The position numbers and the translations under genes were made by a program. A stretch of DNA of 23,881 nt from an uncultured Oscillibacter sp. (GTDB lineage Bacteria; Bacillota; Clostridia; Oscillospirales; Oscillospiraceae). A model generated the notes under the pieces. That model worked only from the letters and a program-made list of their open reading frames with translations, ran no database searches and was not told where the DNA came from. The stretch lies in NCBI GenBank assembly GCA_900542115.1, contig UQMC01000014.1, forward strand, positions 1 to 23,881, read 5' to 3'. Of this stretch, positions 1,424 to 20,143 are shown in pieces (within the stretch, counting starts at the first letter, position 1; every line of letters starts with the position of its first letter).

Positions 1424-2413
1424 ATGAAGGTGACAATCAGCGATGTGGCAAAGCTGGCCGGTGTCTCCACCGCCACAGTCTCCCACACCATTAACTCCAC
1501 CCGCTACGTTTCCGGCGAGACCCGGGATAAGGTCTACCGGGCCATTGCGGAGCTGGGCTACACGCCGGACGCCTCCGCCCGGAGCTTCCGCACCGGCAAG
1601 AAAAAGACCATCGGCTTCATCGTTCCCGATATTTCCAACAAATTTTTCGCCACCATGATCGAGGCGGTGGAAAACTGTCTCTCCGCCCACGGCTATCATC
1701 TGATCATCGCCAATACCAAGGAAAACGCGGAGCGGGAGGAAACGAATATCCGCCTGCTGTCCGCCGGATTGGTGGACGGACTGCTCATTGCCAGCACCAT
1801 TGAGGATTTCAGCCGCTTCGAGTCGCTGATTCCCGCGGGCTTCCCGGTGGTACTGGTGGACCGCACCTTTGAGGCCAAGCGCTTCCCCTCGGTGTCCGTG
1901 TCCAATTTCCAGCCTATTTACCGCAGTGTATGCCGCCTTGCGGGAAAGGGCGACAAGCGCATCGGAATCATCGGCGGCCTGCCCCGGCTCTCCTCCACCC
2001 GTGAGCGCATCGCCGCCTACCGGGAGGCGGTGGCGGACTGCGGTCTGCCGCAGGACGAGGCTCTGATTCGCTTTGGCAACTCCATGGAAAACAGCGCCCG
2101 GGCCTGTCTTGACGAACTGCTGGAGCAAAAATGCGACGCCATTGTGGTAGCACAGGGCCTCATGGCCTCAGACACTGTTATCTACCTCCATGAAAAGGGT
2201 CTGCGGTTGGGAGAGGACATTGACCTTGTGACCTTTGTGGACTACGATTCCAATATCAATCATCTCTATTCCAACCAGATGGACTGCATCGTCCAGCCTG
2301 TCGAGGAACTGGGCGAGGCTGCCGGAGAGCAGATTCTCCAGCGCATTGAGTCCCCGGACGCCCCCGTATTCGAGCAGGTGCTCACCTCCGCCTACAAGCC
2401 CTGCGGGGCATAA
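1424..2413 (+). CDS. LacI-family transcriptional regulator
   Basis: A 329-residue DNA-binding regulator of standard LacI/GalR length. The N-terminal helix-turn-helix starts at the first residue (TISDVAKLAGVSTATVSH, about 4-21), followed by the hinge-helix region (TPDASARSFRTG, about 48-59) and a periplasmic-binding-like effector domain starting with KKTIGFIVPDISNKFF. The start is the ATG at 1424, because the HTH begins there and AAAGAGGT lies upstream; the open frame extends further 5' without similarity. It sits divergent to gap, so control of central carbon metabolism and of itself is plausible. The sequence differs enough from CcpA that I do not call it CcpA. The effector sugar or metabolite cannot be read from sequence. 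A strong terminator follows immediately. Confidence 0.93.
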   Translation: MKVTISDVAKLAGVSTATVSHTINSTRYVSGETRDKVYRAIAELGYTPDASARSFRTGKKKTIGFIVPDISNKFFATMIEAVENCLSAHGYHLIIANTKENAEREETNIRLLSAGLVDGLLIASTIEDFSRFESLIPAGFPVVLVDRTFEAKRFPSVSVSNFQPIYRSVCRLAGKGDKRIGIIGGLPRLSSTRERIAAYREAVADCGLPQDEALIRFGNSMENSARACLDELLEQKCDAIVVAQGLMASDTVIYLHEKGLRLGEDIDLVTFVDYDSNINHLYSNQMDCIVQPVEELGEAAGEQILQRIESPDAPVFEQVLTSAYKPCGA

Positions 2414-2427
2414 GCCCGTTTCTCCGC

Positions 2428-2459
2428 CCCCCGGAGCAGGATGCTCCGGGGGATTTTTT
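2428..2459 (+). terminator. Terminator of LacI-family gene
   Basis: CCCCCGGAGCA (2428-2438) pairs with TGCTCCGGGGG (2442-2452) around a GGA loop, followed by ATTTTTT. An 11-base GC-rich stem with a U tract 14 bases after the stop codon makes a classic intrinsic terminator. Confidence 0.93.
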
Positions 2460-2475
2460 CGTATGGCCGGGTATC

Positions 2476-2504
2476 TTGACAACGGAAGCCGGGTATGCTA
2501 TGGT
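2476..2504 (+). promoter_or_regulatory. Promoter of the TM1266-ABC operon leader
   Basis: Consensus -35 TTGACA (2476-2481) and -10 TATGGT (2499-2504) are separated by exactly 17 bases, and TGC immediately before the -10 supplies an extended element. Transcription is expected to begin near 2511, about 150 bases before the first gene. Confidence 0.7.
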
Positions 2505-2510
2505 TGGGCT

Positions 2511-2647
2511 TGTCTCCGGAAAGAAGCCTCTAACCGGCGACCCGCCCCAAATACCGTTCTGCCGGCAAGGATATTCCGAGCCGTAAGCTGAGGATGAACC
2601 GATTTGTCTCCATCCCCTCTGCCGAACGGCAGGGGGGATGATTTTTT
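2511..2647 (+). ncRNA. Structured leader with attenuator: riboswitch candidate
   Basis: The untranslated leader between the promoter and the TM1266-type gene ends in an intrinsic terminator placed in front of the operon: CATCCCCTCTGCCG (2611-2624) pairs over 14 bases, with one G-U, with CGGCAGGGGGGATG (2627-2640), then ATTTTTT. Upstream pairings that I can see include CTCCGGAA (2514-2521) with TTCCGAG (2574-2580), closing an inner CCGGC (2534-2538) / GCCGG (2561-2565) helix. GGATG (2592-2596) can pair with CATCC (2611-2615), which would disrupt the terminator arm. This is the architecture of a transcription-terminating riboswitch or another attenuator. I see no leader peptide that would explain it. 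It lacks the signature cores of TPP, SAM, cobalamin and guanidine-I riboswitches as I know them, so the class and ligand are unassigned. Confidence 0.65.
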
Positions 2648-2664
2648 GAAAGGAGTGCTTTGCT

Positions 2665-2946
2665 GTGGAGCATATGAAAACACGGGTGGCGGTCATTGCC
2701 ATTATCGTCCAGGAGGGAGCCTCTGTCACGCCGCTCAACGAGCTGCTGCACCAGTATGGCGGCTATATCATCGGCCGGATGGGCGTCCCCTATCGGGAAA
2801 AGGGCGTCAACGTCATCAGTGTTGCTATGGATGCCCCCGGCGACGCGATCTCCGCCCTGTCCGGCAAGCTGGGCCGCTTGGAGGGTGTGACCGCCAAGAC
2901 CGTCTATGCCCCGGCAGAGAGCATTGGAAAGGAAGAAACAATATGA
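2665..2946 (+). CDS. TM1266-type iron-only hydrogenase system regulator
   Basis: A 93-residue protein matching the family named for Thermotoga TM1266, small ACT/NikR-C-like proteins found beside [FeFe]-hydrogenase maturation genes and presumed to be regulators. Family-typical stretches are RVAVIAIIVQ, LHQYGGYIIGRMGVPYREKG and VISVAMDAPGDAISALSGKLG. No DNA-binding domain is visible, so it may sense a ligand or act by oligomerisation. The GTG at 2665 is preferred because AAAGGAG (2649-2655) is 9 bases upstream; the in-frame ATG at 2674 would be 18 bases away. Its stop overlaps the next start as ATGA, implying translational coupling with the solute-binding protein. No hydE, hydF or hydG lies nearby; the hydrogenase structural genes are 8 kb downstream on the other strand. 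Confidence 0.87.
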   Translation: MEHMKTRVAVIAIIVQEGASVTPLNELLHQYGGYIIGRMGVPYREKGVNVISVAMDAPGDAISALSGKLGRLEGVTAKTVYAPAESIGKEETI

Positions 2947-4022
2947 ACTGGAAAAAGAAACTGCTGGCATTGGGCCTGTCTCTGGCCCTGACGCTGTCTC
3001 TGGCCGCCTGCGGCCAGAAAACCGCCGCACCGGAGCAAACCGACGAGCCCGCACAGACAGAGGAGCCTGCCGAGGCCCCGGAAACGCCGGATGATACCGC
3101 CGCCTTCAAAATTGCCGCCCTGAAAGGCCCCACCGCCATGGGACTGGTGGAACTGATGAGTCTGAGCGACACAGTCAATGAGATGATGGAGGGCAAGGAG
3201 GATGTGGTATCCACCGGCAATACCTACGAATTCACCCTGGCCGGCTCCGCCGATGAGGTGACACCCCTGCTCATCAAGGGCGAGCTGGACATGGCCTGCG
3301 TGCCCGCCAACCTTGCCGCCGTGCTGTACGGCAAAACGGACGGCGCGCTGGAGGTGCTGGCGGTGAACACCCTTGGCGTGCTGTATATCGTGGAAAGCGG
3401 CGATACCGTGCAGTCCATGGCGGACTTGAAGGGCAAGACCATCGTGGCTGCCGGCAAGGGCAGCACACCGGAATACGCTCTGCGCTATCTGCTGAGTGAA
3501 AACGGCATCGACCCGGATAACGATGTGACCATCGACTGGAAAAGTGAGCACAGCGAGTGCGTCGCGGCACTGGCCAGCGGTCAGGCCGCCATTGCCCTGC
3601 TGCCCCAGCCCTTTGTCACCGTGGCTCAGACGAAGATCGAGGGTCTGCGGATGGCACTGGATCTGACAGCGGAGTGGGATAAGCTGGATAACGGTTCCGG
3701 CCTCATCACCGGCGTCATTGTGGCCCGCCGGGAGGTGGTGGACGCCAACCCCGACGCAGTAGATGCTTTCCTCAAGGACTATGCCGCCAGCGTGGAATGG
3801 GTAAACGGCAACACGGCGGAGGCTGCCCAGCTCATTTCCGAATACGGCATCGTTGAGGCCGCTCCCGTGGCGGAAAAGGCTCTGCCCTACTGCAACATCG
3901 TTTGCATCACCGGCAGTGTGATGAAAGAGAAGCTCTCCGGCTATCTTCAGGTGCTCTCCGACGCCGAGCCCGCTTCCGTGGGCGGTGCGCTCCCCGGCGA
4001 GGATTTCTATTACGGCGCATAA
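2943..4022 (+). CDS. ABC importer solute-binding lipoprotein (NMT1/SsuA-like)
   Basis: A 359-residue extracytoplasmic binding protein. The N-terminus is a lipoprotein signal: basic MNWKKK, a hydrophobic run, then lipobox LAAC with Cys23 as the lipidation site. A Glu/Pro/Thr-rich linker (about 24-50) follows, then a periplasmic-binding type 2 fold of the nitrate/sulfonate/taurine/thiamine-precursor group. Visible blocks are LLIKGELDMACVPANLAAVLY, MADLKGKTIVAAGKGSTPEYALRYLL and LASGQAAIALLPQPFVT. It captures a small molecule and delivers it to the permease at 4139. The substrate cannot be inferred: this family covers sulfonates, pyrimidine precursors, aromatic acids and others. The coupling to a TM1266 regulator and a leader attenuator is the only functional clue. 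Start ATG 2943 overlaps the upstream stop. Confidence 0.88.
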   Translation: MNWKKKLLALGLSLALTLSLAACGQKTAAPEQTDEPAQTEEPAEAPETPDDTAAFKIAALKGPTAMGLVELMSLSDTVNEMMEGKEDVVSTGNTYEFTLAGSADEVTPLLIKGELDMACVPANLAAVLYGKTDGALEVLAVNTLGVLYIVESGDTVQSMADLKGKTIVAAGKGSTPEYALRYLLSENGIDPDNDVTIDWKSEHSECVAALASGQAAIALLPQPFVTVAQTKIEGLRMALDLTAEWDKLDNGSGLITGVIVARREVVDANPDAVDAFLKDYAASVEWVNGNTAEAAQLISEYGIVEAAPVAEKALPYCNIVCITGSVMKEKLSGYLQVLSDAEPASVGGALPGEDFYYGA

Positions 4023-4138: not shown

Positions 4139-4903
4139 ATGGGTCAAAAGAAAAACACGCTCCGCCTGTGGGCGGTGCTGCTCTGGCTTGCCCTCTGGCA
4201 GCTTGCGGCCATGGCGCTGCGCCGCGCCTATCCCCACGGAAATCTGCTGCTGGCCTCGCCGGTCAGCGTTTTAGAGCGTCTGTGGCAGCTTGCCTGCACC
4301 GCCGCGTTCTGGGAAACGGTGGGCCGCTCCGCTGCCCGAATCTTCGGCGGCTTTCTGCTCTCCACGATTTTGGCGGTGCTCTGCGCCGCCCTTGCCGCGT
4401 GGAAACCGCGGTTTCGGGAGCTGCTGGCCCCGCCGGTGGCAGTCATTAAAGCGGTGCCGGTAGCGTCCTTCATCATTCTGGCGCTGGTGTGGCTGGACAG
4501 CCGAAGCCTCTCCTTTTTTATCTCCGCCCTGATGGTGTTCCCTCCGGTCTACCTCAATGTGCTGGAGGGCCTCTGCCGGACGGACCGTCAGCTTTTGGAA
4601 ATGGCCCGGGTATTCCGCGTCCCCCTCTCCCGGCGGCTGCGGTACATCGCCTTGCCGCAGGTGCTCCCCTATTTCCGCACAGCGCTGTCTCTTGCGCTGG
4701 GCCTTTGCTGGAAGGCCGGTGCCGCCGCTGAGGTCATCGGCCTGCCTGCCGGGACCATCGGGGAGCGGCTGTACACCGCCAAGGTATATTTTCAGACGCC
4801 GGACCTCTTTGCGTGGACGCTTGCCATTGTGGCGGTATCGGTGCTGGCGGAGCGGCTGCTGCTGCGTCTGGCGGACGCGGCGGTGGAAAGGTGGTGCGGC
4901 TGA
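4139..4903 (+). CDS. ABC transporter permease (SsuC/TauC-like)
   Basis: A 254-residue inner-membrane protein with about six hydrophobic segments, the standard size for BPD-type importer permeases. The EAA loop that docks on the ATPase is at about residues 154-178 (EMARVFRVPLSRRLRYIALPQVLPYF region), with the SsuC-like stretch VIKAVPVASFIILALVWL before it. It should form the translocation pore for the ligand bound by the lipoprotein at 2943. The start ATG 4139 follows AGAAGGGGG. The stop overlaps the ATPase start (TGATG), so the two membrane-associated components are translationally coupled. Confidence 0.92.
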   Translation: MGQKKNTLRLWAVLLWLALWQLAAMALRRAYPHGNLLLASPVSVLERLWQLACTAAFWETVGRSAARIFGGFLLSTILAVLCAALAAWKPRFRELLAPPVAVIKAVPVASFIILALVWLDSRSLSFFISALMVFPPVYLNVLEGLCRTDRQLLEMARVFRVPLSRRLRYIALPQVLPYFRTALSLALGLCWKAGAAAEVIGLPAGTIGERLYTAKVYFQTPDLFAWTLAIVAVSVLAERLLLRLADAAVERWCG

Positions 4904-5463
4904 TGGAGGTTCAAAAGCTCTGCAAGTCCTATGATGACCGTCCGGTGCTGCAAAATGTATCCTTCACGGCGGAGAACGGCGTCACCGCCCTGTGGGGGCC
5001 CTCCGGCGCGGGCAAGACCACGCTGCTGCGGATTCTCATGGGGCTGGAGGTCCCGGACAGCGGTACATTATCCGGTACCGATGTCCGTTGGAGCGCCGTT
5101 TTTCAGGAGGATCGGCTGCTGCCGGGGCTGGACGCCATGGAAAATCTCCGGTTCGTGCTGGGGCCGGACATGGATAATGACGCCGCTGCCGCGCAGCTCC
5201 GGGCGCTGGGTCTGGACCCGTCCCCCGGTCAGTGCGTCCGGTCATGGTCCGGCGGCATGAGGCGCCGCCTTGCGCTGGCCCGGGCGCTGCTGGCCCCGGC
5301 GGACGCGCTGGCGCTGGACGAGCCCTTCACCGGACTGGACACGGAAAACCGGCAGCGCGCGGCGGCGTGCATCGCCCAAGCGGCGGAACGGATGCCGGTG
5401 CTGTTGGTGACCCATGATCCCCTTGACCTCTCTACCCTCCGCGCCCGCTGCATCAAGCTATAA
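4903..5463 (+). CDS. ABC transporter ATP-binding protein
   Basis: ATPase that powers the importer. In 186 residues it keeps every nucleotide-binding element: Walker A GPSGAGKTT (32-40), Q-loop FQED (Gln68), signature WSGGM (115-119, a mild variant of LSGGQ), Walker B ALALDE (135-140), D-loop GLD, and switch histidine in VTHD (His171). It is shorter than the usual 240-260 residues of SsuB/TauB because the C-terminus ends soon after the H-loop, so it is a minimal nucleotide-binding domain. Start ATG 4903 overlaps the permease stop by one base, with AAAGGTGG upstream. A bidirectional terminator follows directly. Confidence 0.92.
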   Translation: MEVQKLCKSYDDRPVLQNVSFTAENGVTALWGPSGAGKTTLLRILMGLEVPDSGTLSGTDVRWSAVFQEDRLLPGLDAMENLRFVLGPDMDNDAAAAQLRALGLDPSPGQCVRSWSGGMRRRLALARALLAPADALALDEPFTGLDTENRQRAAACIAQAAERMPVLLVTHDPLDLSTLRARCIKL

Positions 5464-10507: not shown

Positions 10508-12223
10508 TTACCGCTCCCGCTCCGTGTGGAGCAGCTGGAGGGCCCGTTCTCCCAACGGCTTTTTCAGGTATTCCTTGTATAGCGCCTGAACCTCCGGGTT
10601 TTCGTGAGAGAAGCGGAGCTCGGCATCGGCGTCCAGCTTCCACAGCCGGTCGCCCCGAACCGCAGCCATCTCCTGTCCCTCGTGAATGGGCTGACCGCCG
10701 CCGCCGGCACAGCCGCCGGGACAGGCCATGACCTCCACGAAATCGTAGTCCGCACGGCCATGGTCAATGGCCTCCATCAGCGCCCGGACGTTAGAAAGGC
10801 CGCTGACTGCCGCCACCCGCACCTCGCCGGCGCCGGGAATGGTGAACACAGCCTCCTTCCACGGCTTGCTGCCGCGAATTTCCCGGAAGGCGTCCGCATC
10901 GGGATTTTTTCCCGTGACCATGTGGTAGGCGCTGCGGAGCGCCGCGTCCATCACGCCGCCGGTGGTGCCGAAGATCACCGCCGCGCCGGTGCCGGTGCCC
11001 AGCGGGCTGTCAAACTCCATCTCCGGTAGCTCCGTGGGTACGATACAGTCGCTTCGGAACAGGCGGCACATCTCCCGGGTGGTCAGCACAACGTCCACAT
11101 CCGGGTCGCCGCAGGCGGAGGTCATTTCCGGCAGTATGCACTCCGCCTTTTTCGCTGTGCACGGCATCATGGATACCACCATGATCTTATGGGGGTCCAA
11201 CCCCATTTTCTCGGCAAAGTAGCTTTTCGCCACAGCGCCGAACATCTGCTGGGGGGACTTTGCCGTGGAGAGGCTGGAAACGTAGTCCGGGTACTGGGAG
11301 CGCAGGAACCGCACCCAGCTGGGGCAGCAGGAGGTGAACATCGGCCAACGGTAGCGGCTCTTATGGGTAAAGCGCTCCACAAACTCGCTGCCCTCCTCCA
11401 TAATGGTGAGGTCGGCGGCAAAATTCGTGTCAAACACATAGTCAAAGCCGATCTGCTTCAGCGCCGCCACCATGCGGCCGGTGCTGCCCTGCTTGGGAGA
11501 GAGGCCGAAGGCCTCCGCCCACGCCACCCGCACCGCCGGCGCCACTTGGACGATCGTGGTGATGTTCGGGTCCGCCAGCGCGTCCAGAACGGTGTTGGTA
11601 TCGTCCCGGGCTGTCAGGGCGCCGGTGGGGCAGTGGGTCACGCACTGCCCGCAGAATGTGCAGTCCGTGTCCTTCAGGGAACGGCCTCCGGCAACATCCA
11701 CCGTGGTGCGGGAGCCGGTACCCACCACATCCCAGATGTGCATTCCCTGAATTTTATCGCACACCTGAATGCAGCGCATACACTTGATGCACTTGCTGGC
11801 CTCCCGAATCACGGGAACGTCCATGTCCAGCCGGCTCCGCTCCGGCTTCACCGGATAGGGCTGGTAGTGGATGTTCAGGTAATGGGCCAGATTTTGCAGC
11901 TCGCAGTTCCCGCTGCGGATGCAGGTGGTGCAGGTAGAATTGTGCTGGGATAGAATGAGTCGTAGATTTGTCTTCCGTGCCTCCCGGACCCGGGGCGTAT
12001 TGGTGTGAATGGACATCCCCTCCACCACCCGCGTGTTGCAGGCGGGGACAAGGCGCTCCGTCCCCTCTACCTCTACCACGCAGATGCGGCACGCGCCGAT
12101 CTCGTTAATATCCCGGAGATAGCACAGATGGGGAATGGGGATTCCCGCCCGGGCGGCGGCCTGCAAAATGGTGCTGCCGTTCTGTACGGCAATATCTGTA
12201 CCGTTGATCTTGATATTTACCAT
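10508..12223 (-). CDS. hydA: [FeFe]-hydrogenase catalytic subunit (M3-type, HydA/HndD-like)
   Basis: Reversible proton reduction to H2. The 571 residues hold, in order: a [2Fe-2S] ferredoxin domain (Cys34, 45, 48, 62); the His-Cys3 [4Fe-4S] site (His94, Cys98, 101, 107); two [4Fe-4S] clusters (CIKCMRCIQVC at 145-155, CTFCGQCVTHC at 188-198); and the H-cluster domain with L1 TSCCPSW (Cys299), L2 MPCTAKKAE (Cys354/355 region) and L3 ACPGGCAGG (Cys501, Cys505). All H-cluster ligands and the proton-path cysteine next to Cys299 are present, so it should be active. The true start is ATG 12223 (MVNIKINGTD), overlapping the stop of the flavoprotein gene by 7 bases. Maturases HydEFG are not in the window. 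An electron-bifurcating or simply NAD(P)H-coupled role depends on the partner subunit. Confidence 0.96.
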   Translation of the reverse strand: MVNIKINGTDIAVQNGSTILQAAARAGIPIPHLCYLRDINEIGACRICVVEVEGTERLVPACNTRVVEGMSIHTNTPRVREARKTNLRLILSQHNSTCTTCIRSGNCELQNLAHYLNIHYQPYPVKPERSRLDMDVPVIREASKCIKCMRCIQVCDKIQGMHIWDVVGTGSRTTVDVAGGRSLKDTDCTFCGQCVTHCPTGALTARDDTNTVLDALADPNITTIVQVAPAVRVAWAEAFGLSPKQGSTGRMVAALKQIGFDYVFDTNFAADLTIMEEGSEFVERFTHKSRYRWPMFTSCCPSWVRFLRSQYPDYVSSLSTAKSPQQMFGAVAKSYFAEKMGLDPHKIMVVSMMPCTAKKAECILPEMTSACGDPDVDVVLTTREMCRLFRSDCIVPTELPEMEFDSPLGTGTGAAVIFGTTGGVMDAALRSAYHMVTGKNPDADAFREIRGSKPWKEAVFTIPGAGEVRVAAVSGLSNVRALMEAIDHGRADYDFVEVMACPGGCAGGGGQPIHEGQEMAAVRGDRLWKLDADAELRFSHENPEVQALYKEYLKKPLGERALQLLHTERER

Positions 12224-14052
12224 TTTTCCACACGCCCCCCCTTGAAGATTCCGTAGCCGAAGTGGTCGCAGCGCAGGCACCGTCCGGCCTCCTGCGCCAC
12301 CTCCTCGTCCGTCATGGAGCATTCCATGCAGTCAAAGTCGCACTTGCGCTCACTGGCCTCCCGCTCCCGGCAGTCCACCCGGCCTCGGGGCCGGATATCC
12401 TCGCACCGGGGCGTGGGAATCTCCACATCGGCCTCGATCTCATGGTGGAAGCCCAGATAATCGTCAATATTGTCGGCAGCGGCCTTACCGGCCGCAATGG
12501 CCCGCACTACCGTGGCAGGGCCGCTGACACAGTCGCCGCCAGCAAACACACCGTCCAGCTCCGGAAGCTGTGTGCTGGAATAGGCCAGCAGCGTGCCGCC
12601 CCGCTGAATCTTGATGCCCGCCTGCTCAAAGCCCTTGGACTCAATGCCCTGTCCGATGGCAACGATGATGATGTCCGCCGGAATCCGCACTGGCTCCACA
12701 GAGGCCGTGTTGGGCCGGGGACGTCCCGCCTTATCCACCTCGCCGATGAGCTGGGGCTGCGCCCAAAGAGCCGTGGCGCGGCCATCCTCCACCTCCACCC
12801 GGAGAGGCGCGTGGAGAGTCAGAATCTCGGCACCCTCGGCAATGGCGCCCTCTACCTCCTCCACCTGCGCGGTCATATCCTCCTGCCGGCGGCGGTATAC
12901 ACACGTTACCCGCTGGGCGCCGAGGCGGACGGCGCTGCGGGTCACGTCCATGGCAACGTTGCCGCCGCCGATGACCGCCACGTTCATGCCGGTGAAGTCC
13001 GGCATCTCGTTATCGCCGATATGCCGCAGCATATCCACGGCGGACATGACGCCGATGGCATCCTCGCCCTCGATACCCACCTTTTTATCCGTGTGGGCGC
13101 CGATGGAAAGATACAGCGCGTCATACTGGCCCCGGAGCTGCTCCAGCGTCAGATCGCCGCCGATGTCCACCTCGGTATGTACCTCGATGCCAAGGGAAAG
13201 GATGGAACGAATTTCTCCGTCCAGCTTTTCCCGGGGGAAACGGTAGCTGGGAATGCCGTAGCGCATCATGCCGCCAAGCTGGCGGCGCTTTTCATACACC
13301 GTGACCTTATGGCCCATGAGGGACAGGTAATACGCGGCGGAAAGGCCGCTGGGGCCGCCGCCCACCACGGCCACCCGCTTACCGGTGGACGGCGTGGGGA
13401 CAGGCTGGGGCACCTCTCCCGCCCGGTCCACGGCGGCCCGCTTCAGGCCCCGGATGTTGATGGCGTCGTCCACCATGTTCCGGCGGCAGCGGGACTCGCA
13501 GGGGTGCTCGCAGATATAGGCGCAGGCCGTGGGGAAGGGATTGTCCTTGCGGATGAGCCGCACGGCGTCCGCAAAGCGGCCCGCCTTGACCAGGGCAATA
13601 TAACCCGGGATGTCCACCCCGGCGGGACACATGGCTACACAGGGCACAGGGTTTCGCAGCGTACCGAGGCAGCGGTGGTGGAGGATATGCTCCTCAAAAT
13701 CCTCCCGAAAGCCCCGGACACTGGTGAGAATCAGGTTTGCGGCGTCAATGCCGATGGCACAGTCCGCCGTGTCCACAATGACCTGTGCGGTCTCCTCCAG
13801 ATGCCGCAGCATCCGCAGATCGGAGTGTCCGTCCAGAATCTCCGAGAGCATATCGGACAACTGGGTCAGTCCGATGCGGCAGGGAACGCATTTGCCGCAG
13901 GTCTGCGCCCGGCACAGGTCCAGTGAGTTCAGCGCCATGTCCACGGGGCACAGACCCGGAGGGCTGGCGGCGATGCGCCGCTCCATATTGCGGTACATCT
14001 GCTCTACAACCGCCTGAGCCCGGTCCGGTGTTTTTACTTCCAGCCTGCTCAT
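12217..14052 (-). CDS. GltD-like flavoprotein with NuoF-type Fe-S domain, hydrogenase partner
   Basis: A 611-residue electron-transfer subunit encoded first in the hydrogenase operon. The N-terminus is the C-terminal [4Fe-4S] domain of NuoF/HydB (TCGKCVPCRIG with Cys52, 55, 58 and a fourth at Cys98) without its FMN domain. The rest is glutamate-synthase-small-subunit/NfnL-like: Fe-S cysteines at about 138-189 (CVAMC, CAYICEHPCESRC), FAD motif GGGPSGLSAA (231-240), second dinucleotide site IGGGNVAMD (361-369) followed by VYRRR, whose arginines in relatives contact the NADP phosphate, and an FAGGD flavin motif. A C-terminal extension adds more cysteines (CDFDCMEC, RCLRCD). It probably passes electrons between NAD(P)H and the hydrogenase; NADPH preference is an inference. 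Start ATG 14052 is preceded by GGAAAGGATG. Confidence 0.9.
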   Translation of the reverse strand: MSRLEVKTPDRAQAVVEQMYRNMERRIAASPPGLCPVDMALNSLDLCRAQTCGKCVPCRIGLTQLSDMLSEILDGHSDLRMLRHLEETAQVIVDTADCAIGIDAANLILTSVRGFREDFEEHILHHRCLGTLRNPVPCVAMCPAGVDIPGYIALVKAGRFADAVRLIRKDNPFPTACAYICEHPCESRCRRNMVDDAINIRGLKRAAVDRAGEVPQPVPTPSTGKRVAVVGGGPSGLSAAYYLSLMGHKVTVYEKRRQLGGMMRYGIPSYRFPREKLDGEIRSILSLGIEVHTEVDIGGDLTLEQLRGQYDALYLSIGAHTDKKVGIEGEDAIGVMSAVDMLRHIGDNEMPDFTGMNVAVIGGGNVAMDVTRSAVRLGAQRVTCVYRRRQEDMTAQVEEVEGAIAEGAEILTLHAPLRVEVEDGRATALWAQPQLIGEVDKAGRPRPNTASVEPVRIPADIIIVAIGQGIESKGFEQAGIKIQRGGTLLAYSSTQLPELDGVFAGGDCVSGPATVVRAIAAGKAAADNIDDYLGFHHEIEADVEIPTPRCEDIRPRGRVDCREREASERKCDFDCMECSMTDEEVAQEAGRCLRCDHFGYGIFKGGRVEKW

Positions 14053-19150: not shown

Positions 19151-20143
19151 ATGACAAAGGATACGATTCTGAGTTTGCTGCGCCAAAGCCCCGGGGAATT
19201 TGTCTCCGGTGAGGTCATCCGGCAGGCAGCGGGTGTCAGCCGTGCGGCGGTGAGCAAAGCCGTGGCTGTGCTGCGGCAGGAGGGCCACGAGATCGAATCC
19301 GTGACCAACCGCGGCTATCGCCTGATATCTCTTGCTGACAGTCTGCGGCCGGAGGAGCTGCGGCAGCGGCTTACAGGGCACCACATCGGTCAGGAGATCG
19401 TGTGTCTCCCCACCATCGACTCTACCAATAACGAGATCAAGCGCCGGGCCGTCAGCGGCTCCGTGGACGGTCTCGTAATTCTTGCCGATCAGCAGACCGG
19501 GGGCCGGGGCCGCCGGGGGCGGAGCTTCGTTTCCCCCGCCGGCAAGGGGCTGTACCTTTCGGCGGCGCTAAAGCCCTACTGCCCCCTGGAGCGGGTCAGC
19601 AGCCTTACCGCTTGGACCGCCGTGGCCCTGTGCGACGCCATTGAACAGGTGTGCGGCGTCCGCCCCGGCATCAAGTGGCCTAACGATTTAGTCTTGCGGG
19701 ATAAAAAGCTCTGCGGCGTGCTGACGGAAATGGAGCTGGAGGCGGAAACCGGCAGTCTTGGCTATGTCATCATCGGCATTGGAATCAATCTCCGGCAGAA
19801 TGAGGCGGATTTCGGCCCGGGGGTAGCCCCCACCGCCATTTCCCTTCAGCAGGCGTTGGGCCGCGCCCCGGACCGGACGGAACTGGCCGCCGCCGTGCTG
19901 CTATCGCTGGACAAGCTGTACCAGGATTTCCCGGAGCGGGCACAGGGGTATTTGGAGCGCTTCCGCCGGGACTGCCTGACACTATGCCGCCCTGTACGGG
20001 TGCTGTATCCTGGCGGCACCAGAGAGGGCACGGCGGTGGACATAACGGAGGACTTCGGCCTCACTGTCCGCTGGCCGGACGGAACGGTGGAAGCCGTGAC
20101 CTCCGGGGAGGTCTCCGTCCGAGGGCTGTACGGGTACGTATAA
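19151..20143 (+). CDS. birA: Biotin--[acetyl-CoA-carboxylase] ligase / biotin operon repressor BirA
   Basis: A 330-residue bifunctional protein: it activates biotin to biotinyl-5'-AMP, attaches it to carboxylase carrier proteins, and represses biotin genes. A winged helix-turn-helix fills residues 1-60 (FVSGEVIRQAAGVSRAAVSKAVAVLRQEGH), so it is the repressor type. The ligase domain has the biotin/ATP loop GGRGRRGRSF at 117-126 and KWPNDL at 175-180, with the lysine of KKLCG at about 186; the BPL C-terminal SH3-like domain follows (VRVLYPGGTREGTAVDITEDFGL). The usual Trp of GRGRxGRxW is Phe here. Start ATG 19151 has GGGGAGG 9 bases upstream; in-frame sequence further 5' would run through the promoter and is rejected. 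Confidence 0.96.
   Translation: MTKDTILSLLRQSPGEFVSGEVIRQAAGVSRAAVSKAVAVLRQEGHEIESVTNRGYRLISLADSLRPEELRQRLTGHHIGQEIVCLPTIDSTNNEIKRRAVSGSVDGLVILADQQTGGRGRRGRSFVSPAGKGLYLSAALKPYCPLERVSSLTAWTAVALCDAIEQVCGVRPGIKWPNDLVLRDKKLCGVLTEMELEAETGSLGYVIIGIGINLRQNEADFGPGVAPTAISLQQALGRAPDRTELAAAVLLSLDKLYQDFPERAQGYLERFRRDCLTLCRPVRVLYPGGTREGTAVDITEDFGLTVRWPDGTVEAVTSGEVSVRGLYGYV

Follow-up and report, generated by a model that had tools for sequence, protein, structure and literature searches.

An uncatalogued cis-regulatory RNA ahead of [FeFe]-hydrogenase maturation genes and a TM1266-linked importer operon

The sequence analysed here, referred to as the window, is a contig stretch of 23,881 nucleotides from an uncultured Oscillibacter sp., in which a leader separates a lacI-type gene from an operon encoding a TM1266-family protein, a substrate-binding protein, a permease and an ATPase. 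This leader is a conserved, covarying cis-regulatory RNA element which had not previously been catalogued; the element precedes genes for assembly of the H-cluster iron cofactor in many anaerobic bacteria and perhaps also genes which import parts of that cofactor. Our favoured reading, to which we would assign a probability of roughly 45%, is that the window leader is a transcription attenuator belonging to an [FeFe]-hydrogenase maturation regulon, with the TM1266 protein as its most likely effector. The name of the TM1266 family says no more than that it is a putative regulator; through the RNA module described below its function becomes directly testable, and the module also ties an uncharacterised importer to the puzzle of organisms with an [FeFe] hydrogenase and no maturases. 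A passage of PMC3226654 describes a few species which have an [FeFe] hydrogenase and lack the three maturases.

Architecture and conservation of the leader

The consensus promoter of the original prediction (2476..2504, plus strand) was borne out, with TTGACA at 2476-2481, a 17-nt spacer and TATGGT at 2499-2504 preceded by TG; this matches the consensus at 10 of 12 positions. Counting the window, 19 of 22 leaders have a promoter match of at least 9/12 at the corresponding position, and L017, L018 and L025 fall below that value. A second strong terminator of 11 pairs (2428-2460, plus strand) ends the upstream lacI-type gene just before this promoter. Downstream on the same strand lie two hairpins which share a purine internal-loop module: P1 (2512..2541), made up of GUC/GAC, a one-base internal loop, CCGG/CCGG, a purine internal loop and AG/CU, and P2 (2559..2587), the movable module, which reads CU-GC-CGGC-AA-GGA-UAU-UCC-GA-GCCG-UA-AG. 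An intrinsic terminator (2611..2647, plus strand) follows and directly precedes the GTG start at 2665. It had been described as a 14-bp stem with U6 ahead of the first gene; the terminator, the U6 (2642-2647) and the position stand, whereas the stem has 13 pairs (2611-2623/2628-2640), nine of them G-C, closed by the loop GAAC and separated from the U6 by an A.

The leader had also been predicted to be pairable, and at 2504-2648 its folding energy is -63.2 kcal/mol against -44.5 (sd 3.7) for shuffled sequences (z -5.06), with the terminator contributing much of this excess stability. GC-rich leaders fold readily, which would fit a GC-rich leader with a constitutive terminator and no regulatory element; this explanation is contradicted by the comparison between genomes, both by covariation and by the near-exclusive placement before the genes of one pathway, and we give it next to no credence. 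Related leaders were collected with the binding protein as query against genome contigs, the relatives lying in the Oscillospiraceae, and a recognisable TM1266 gene was found in 26 of the best 80 of 113 loci. Unguided RNAalifold recovered P1 and P2 from the aligned TM1266 leaders, and for seven of the 14 pairs in its structure there was one sequence or more in which both partners had been exchanged. When a 19-pair structure was scored over 19 aligned leaders, 10 pairs had changed on both sides, compared with a mean of 3.7 in shuffled alignments (none of 500 scored as high), and the signal was destroyed when the pairing partners were slid; covariation was thus judged by RNAalifold and pair counts rather than by R-scape. 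Orthologous leaders are therefore both conserved and covarying, and the 5′ leader holds a conserved covarying domain of the kind expected of a riboswitch sensor.

A covariance model built from the 19 leaders (R1) gave matches at E<1e-6 in 22 of 81 sources, all upstream of TM1266, which comprise the 19 training sequences and three new ones (L010, L012, L014). It also matched L080 (E 9e-4) and L079 (E 0.06) immediately 5′ of the binding-protein gene; both of these operons end with TM1266, and their modules overlap the Shine-Dalgarno region. Over 300 genomes of the family, 14 had a match at E<=0.01, including nine at E<1e-5 which were all upstream of TM1266, and one weak match (L101) proved to be two P2-type modules and a terminator ahead of TM1266 and hydG. 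The L014 leader (about 2387-2501) holds two copies of the CCGTTCTAAGAG stretch on the 5′ side of P2.

The original prediction that the leader holds no common riboswitch core agrees with a search of 4227 Rfam 15 families, in which no family matched the element at gathering score in the window, 20 relatives or 11 hydG regions; only yjdF and a tRNA were matched, both elsewhere, and at E<=10 nothing credible appeared in window 2400-2720. The two outcomes that the original prediction had set as refuting, an Rfam match and a lack of conservation or covariation among orthologous leaders, thus did not occur. The yjdF (azaaromatic) riboswitch was matched with 63.9 bits at 6311-6442 of L017, a relative in which it lies some 3.8 kb downstream of the leader. 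Neither Rfam nor the open-licence PMC literature searched yielded an RNA regulator of [FeFe]-hydrogenase maturation; in the latter no paper on TM1266 is apparently about RNA, and the riboswitches treated in the relevant part of PMC3543383 are other ones.

A terminator was found in each of the 22 leaders, that of L017 being weak and those of L011 and L019 being assigned by hand. As its competitor the original prediction had named GGATG (2592..2596, plus strand), which is complementary to CATCC at 2611-2615. The complementarity is present, but over the 22 leaders the pairing between the terminator 5′ arm and the segment 3′ of P2, GGATG included, does not exceed that of shuffled sequence (mean -9.19 kcal/mol, shuffles -9.18; Fisher p 0.56), and this competitor was rejected. 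The comparison points instead to a candidate antiterminator strand, AAUACCGUUC (2550..2559, plus strand), within which CCGUUC (2554-2559) is complementary to GAACGG of the terminator (2624-2629). For the ten-base segment that closes with the first base of P2, pairing to the terminator loop and 3′ arm has a mean energy of -10.35 kcal/mol, compared with -8.11 for shuffled sequence (Fisher p 5.2e-5, a value overstated because the 22 leaders are related) and with -9.04 for the arms of other leaders. In the window alone p is 0.06. All ten bases are paired in L003, L008, L011 and L013, with an A-U change in L011, and the pairing is absent in at least six of the 22. What survives of the predicted riboswitch or attenuator is a conserved, covarying leader which is a candidate attenuator without the competitor that had been named, and a small-molecule riboswitch is a candidate as well.

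Placement of the P2 module

P2 is a covarying hairpin in which two purine internal loops flank a 4-bp helix, with the consensus CU-GA-N4-RA-n3-loop-n3-GA-N4-RA-AG. A model of P2 only (R2) was built from 23 rows, including modules of L021, L032 and L058 found by eye; eight of its 10 pairs were changed on both sides, a value reached by one of 500 shuffles, and it scores 42.8 bits at window 2556-2592, the window being part of its training set. Across 291 Clostridia genomes, R2 matched at E<=0.01 in 27 genomes and 28 places. At 24 of these places a homologue of TM1266, HydG or HydA is encoded within about 1.5 kb on each side; none was present over that distance in L123, L126, L129 and L130. A strong module (36.8 bits) at 1529-1567 of L091 (G002:C35) stands before a hairpin and just 3′ of what appears by eye to be an [FeFe]-hydrogenase gene, the HydA match ending shortly before it.

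The hydG regions were then taken as all 112 places, in 111 of the 291 genomes, with HydG at E<1e-230. Here R2 at E<=1 gave 68 matches, which a 400-nt rule assigned to TM1266 (39), hydG (21), hydE (5) and elsewhere (3), so that 65 directly precede one of the three genes; by a 500-nt rule, R2 places a module in 56 of the 112 hydG loci. A strict descriptor derived from the consensus found 32 matches in 2.53 Mb strand-bases, of which 31 lie before TM1266, hydG or hydE as against 0.05 expected, and added five loci. Near-exclusive placement before these genes makes the element a so far unlisted RNA that regulates [FeFe]-hydrogenase maturation in cis; it is not private to the window operon. An RNA tied to the ABC transporter as such was rejected, since L001 and L022 have the transporter with neither a TM1266 nor an RNA match and most modules precede hydrogenase-maturation genes instead.

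Segmentation of 108 module rows, a few of them plainly chance matches, gave a CU start in 103, an AG end in 99, GA in the first internal loop in 84 and GA in the opposite second loop in 73, the purine internal loops thus being conserved and the terminal loops variable. The central four pairs form in 65, 71, 82 and 73 of 82 distinct modules with a 4-bp centre, compared with 58, 45, 52 and 55 in the best of 500 shuffles.

Further afield, a 32.9-bit module before TM1266-ABC in Vescimonas fastidiosa MM35 was missed by R1 and detected by the P2 model only, Monoglobus pectinilyticus carries a 38.5-bit module before TM1266-hydG, and the Coriobacteriales assembly OH1046 and an Actinomycetes-titled assembly each have one before hydG (24.4 bits, E 0.0125); the module search gave no match in Acetoanaerobium noterae. 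Modules occur in tandem in L101, L138/L202 and L155/L243, and in L121, L127 and L131 one is also found 5′ of a more distant HydG-type protein (41-44% identity). Three weak matches were discarded: in L090 within an apparent phosphoglycerate mutase gene (by eye), in L278 in what resembles coding sequence, and at window 19799-19881 within an ORF.

The importer operon and the H-cluster

The operon had been called a hydrogenase-regulator/importer operon, and its genes, all on the plus strand, accord with that name. The first (2665..2946) is a TM1266-family gene (PF21699, TIGR03959) scoring 110.7 bits against TIGR03959, the cut-off being 60.8. It is followed by domain matches to a substrate-binding lipoprotein of the NMT1/SsuA type (2943..4022), an ABC permease (4139..4903) and an ABC ATPase (4903..5463). 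The binding protein has an invariant PYCNIVCI motif, with its two invariant cysteines, over 13 aligned members. On the minus strand of the window, at 10508-14052, is an NADH-dependent [FeFe] hydrogenase of group A6 (767.8 bits, cut-off 765) whose NAD(P)-binding partner has NADH dehydrogenase-type domains; the pair lies about 5 kb from the importer operon.

Genomes with the importer tend to have the hydrogenase and to lack its maturases. Among 40 importer genomes, all 40 matched TIGR02512 (HydA), 34 over its cut-off, while HydG at E<=1e-60 was present in four and missing from 36, and HydF exceeded its cut-off in eight. In the 26 genomes with TM1266 beside the importer (L002-L021, L025, L032, L045, L058, L079, L080), HydG and HydF were both absent and HydA was over cut-off in 20; for the genome of the window itself, absence of HydG and HydF is inferred from these relatives. 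In whole genomes the maturases searched for were HydG and HydF, and many of the genomes are metagenome assemblies. In the 291-genome sample the binding protein was found at E<1e-85 in 60 genomes and HydA at about E<=1e-100 in 249. Within those 249, the binding protein occurs in 30 of 85 HydG-less genomes against 22 of 164 HydG-positive ones (p 1.2e-4), HydG status counting both matches at E<1e-230 and a more distant HydG which is the sole HydG match in 71 of the 291, and 55 have neither HydG nor the binding protein. As 22 HydG-positive genomes have both, the data show an anticorrelation and not mutual exclusion.

A different transporter component appears in the same context in three HydG-less genomes, G419, G364 and G442 (L109, L122 and L132 respectively), where a small membrane protein is encoded after a module and TM1266. 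In Pfam the L109 and L132 proteins match an ECF substrate component; the L122 protein has no such match, but is 80% identical to its counterpart in L109. In L109 and L122, hydA precedes the module and TM1266.

Where HydG and HydF are missing from a genome, the importer thus probably provides something used in H-cluster assembly, and the module would control the making or importing of something for the H-cluster. However, the module precedes a TM1266-ABC importer operon in one lineage group, and most importer loci beyond the TM1266-linked ones are without it; in 36 of 40 importer genomes chosen for TM1266 not standing ahead of the importer (L079 having it at the operon end) there was no R2 match at E<=0.02, and the substrate is for this reason a guess. 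It is possible, though we think it rather unlikely, that what the importer carries (a sulfonate, for example) has nothing to do with the H-cluster and that the RNA answers to the general redox or iron state. The nearest folds to the binding protein (3hn0, TauA, PqqT, SsuA), the HydG-positive genomes which carry it and the module-free importer loci without TM1266 would fit such a view, whereas the anticorrelation with HydG, the linkage of importer to TM1266 and the ECF-type component in HydG-less genomes argue against it.

A bolder proposal, which we put forward as speculation, is that the [2Fe] half of the H-cluster or an Fe-CO-CN synthon behaves like a shared vitamin, either made via HydE/HydG/HydF or imported via a TM1266-linked ABC or ECF transporter, with one RNA sensing the supply, alone or together with TM1266. 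If true, this would explain [FeFe]-hydrogenase genomes without maturases, and if the importer does bring in an H-cluster precursor, the gut bacteria concerned would rely on cofactor sharing for their hydrogen metabolism.

Candidate readers of the module and comparison with known systems

TM1266 was the most constant companion of the module among the genes tested. Of the 61 hydG loci that bear a module, 59 lie in a genome with TM1266, compared with 27 of the 51 other loci (p 2.8e-8); when only modules at hydG or hydE are counted, the figures are 25 of 27 against 61 of 85 (p 0.034). Neither p value is corrected for relatedness. In the 40 importer genomes without TM1266 in front, it was present in all four with an R2 match (one match being coding sequence) and in seven of 36 without (one being below cut-off). 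These co-occurrence figures are inflated by relatedness and by joint loss of leader and gene; in addition, no module was seen at 27 hydG loci whose genomes do have TM1266. The P2 hairpin is plain and quasi-symmetric, a shape to be expected of the site of a dimeric protein. TM1266 is therefore our most likely, putative reader, a leaning with a riboswitch close behind, and a protein-read attenuator suits the data no less than a small-molecule riboswitch does. It is improbable, in our judgement, that the module is read by some other factor acting in trans, be it a small RNA or an unrelated RNA-binding protein, and that TM1266 is a regulon member only; a solved relative of TM1266, 2nzc, is annotated only as a hypothetical protein, which would fit such a view, yet no other gene tested follows the module as constantly.

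If TM1266 is the effector, it would bind and stabilise P2. In the window, the stabilised hairpin would prevent the strand just 5′ of it from engaging the loop and 3′ arm of the terminator; termination would therefore be favoured and the operon turned off, the TM1266 protein thus feeding back on its own operon. Before hydG, where the end of the module adjoins a purine-rich Shine-Dalgarno sequence in 16 loci, a stabilised module would block ribosomes and expression would likewise be off. TM1266 may perhaps itself sense an H-cluster intermediate, iron or the redox state.

The same layout could serve a small-molecule riboswitch, a real possibility short of even odds, in which P2, often in tandem or with P1, directly binds a metabolite or ion of H-cluster biology and the genes are turned off; candidate ligands would be a product of HydG or HydE, iron or the importer's substrate. 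Placing synthesis and importer genes under one RNA is the usual logic of cofactor riboswitches, and the invariant purine internal loops, the tandem modules, the terminators as expression platform and the hydG modules of G502 and G323, where TM1266 has no match at E<=0.001, are all consistent with it. Against a riboswitch stand the strong co-occurrence with TM1266 and the shape of the RNA, which revealed neither a junction nor a pseudoknot that could make an obvious pocket.

Three known systems bear comparison. The Moco RNA motif is a type of cofactor riboswitch. As with that motif, one RNA stands ahead of the synthesis, transport and regulator genes of one cofactor system and control would be by terminator or ribosome site; the sequence and fold differ, there is no Rfam match, and ligand binding is here only putative. 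A passage of PMC5651825 places a Moco motif before a hydrogenase cluster. The present element also resembles guanidine-II in its small, often paired hairpins, each with the same conserved core. Guanidine-II (mini-ykkC) riboswitches consist of small hairpins, often two in a row, with conserved ACGR loops, whereas here the purine internal loops are conserved and the terminal loops vary over the 108 rows (UAU in P2 of the window), again with no Rfam match. PyrR, HutP and TRAP are protein-read attenuators. Here the RNA site, the protein and the pathway are others, and the PyrR family of Rfam reaches 18.1 bits in the window against a gathering score of 54; the arrangement is nonetheless alike, in that a putative regulator is encoded in the operon which follows the leader and that terminator and candidate antiterminator would be alternatives.
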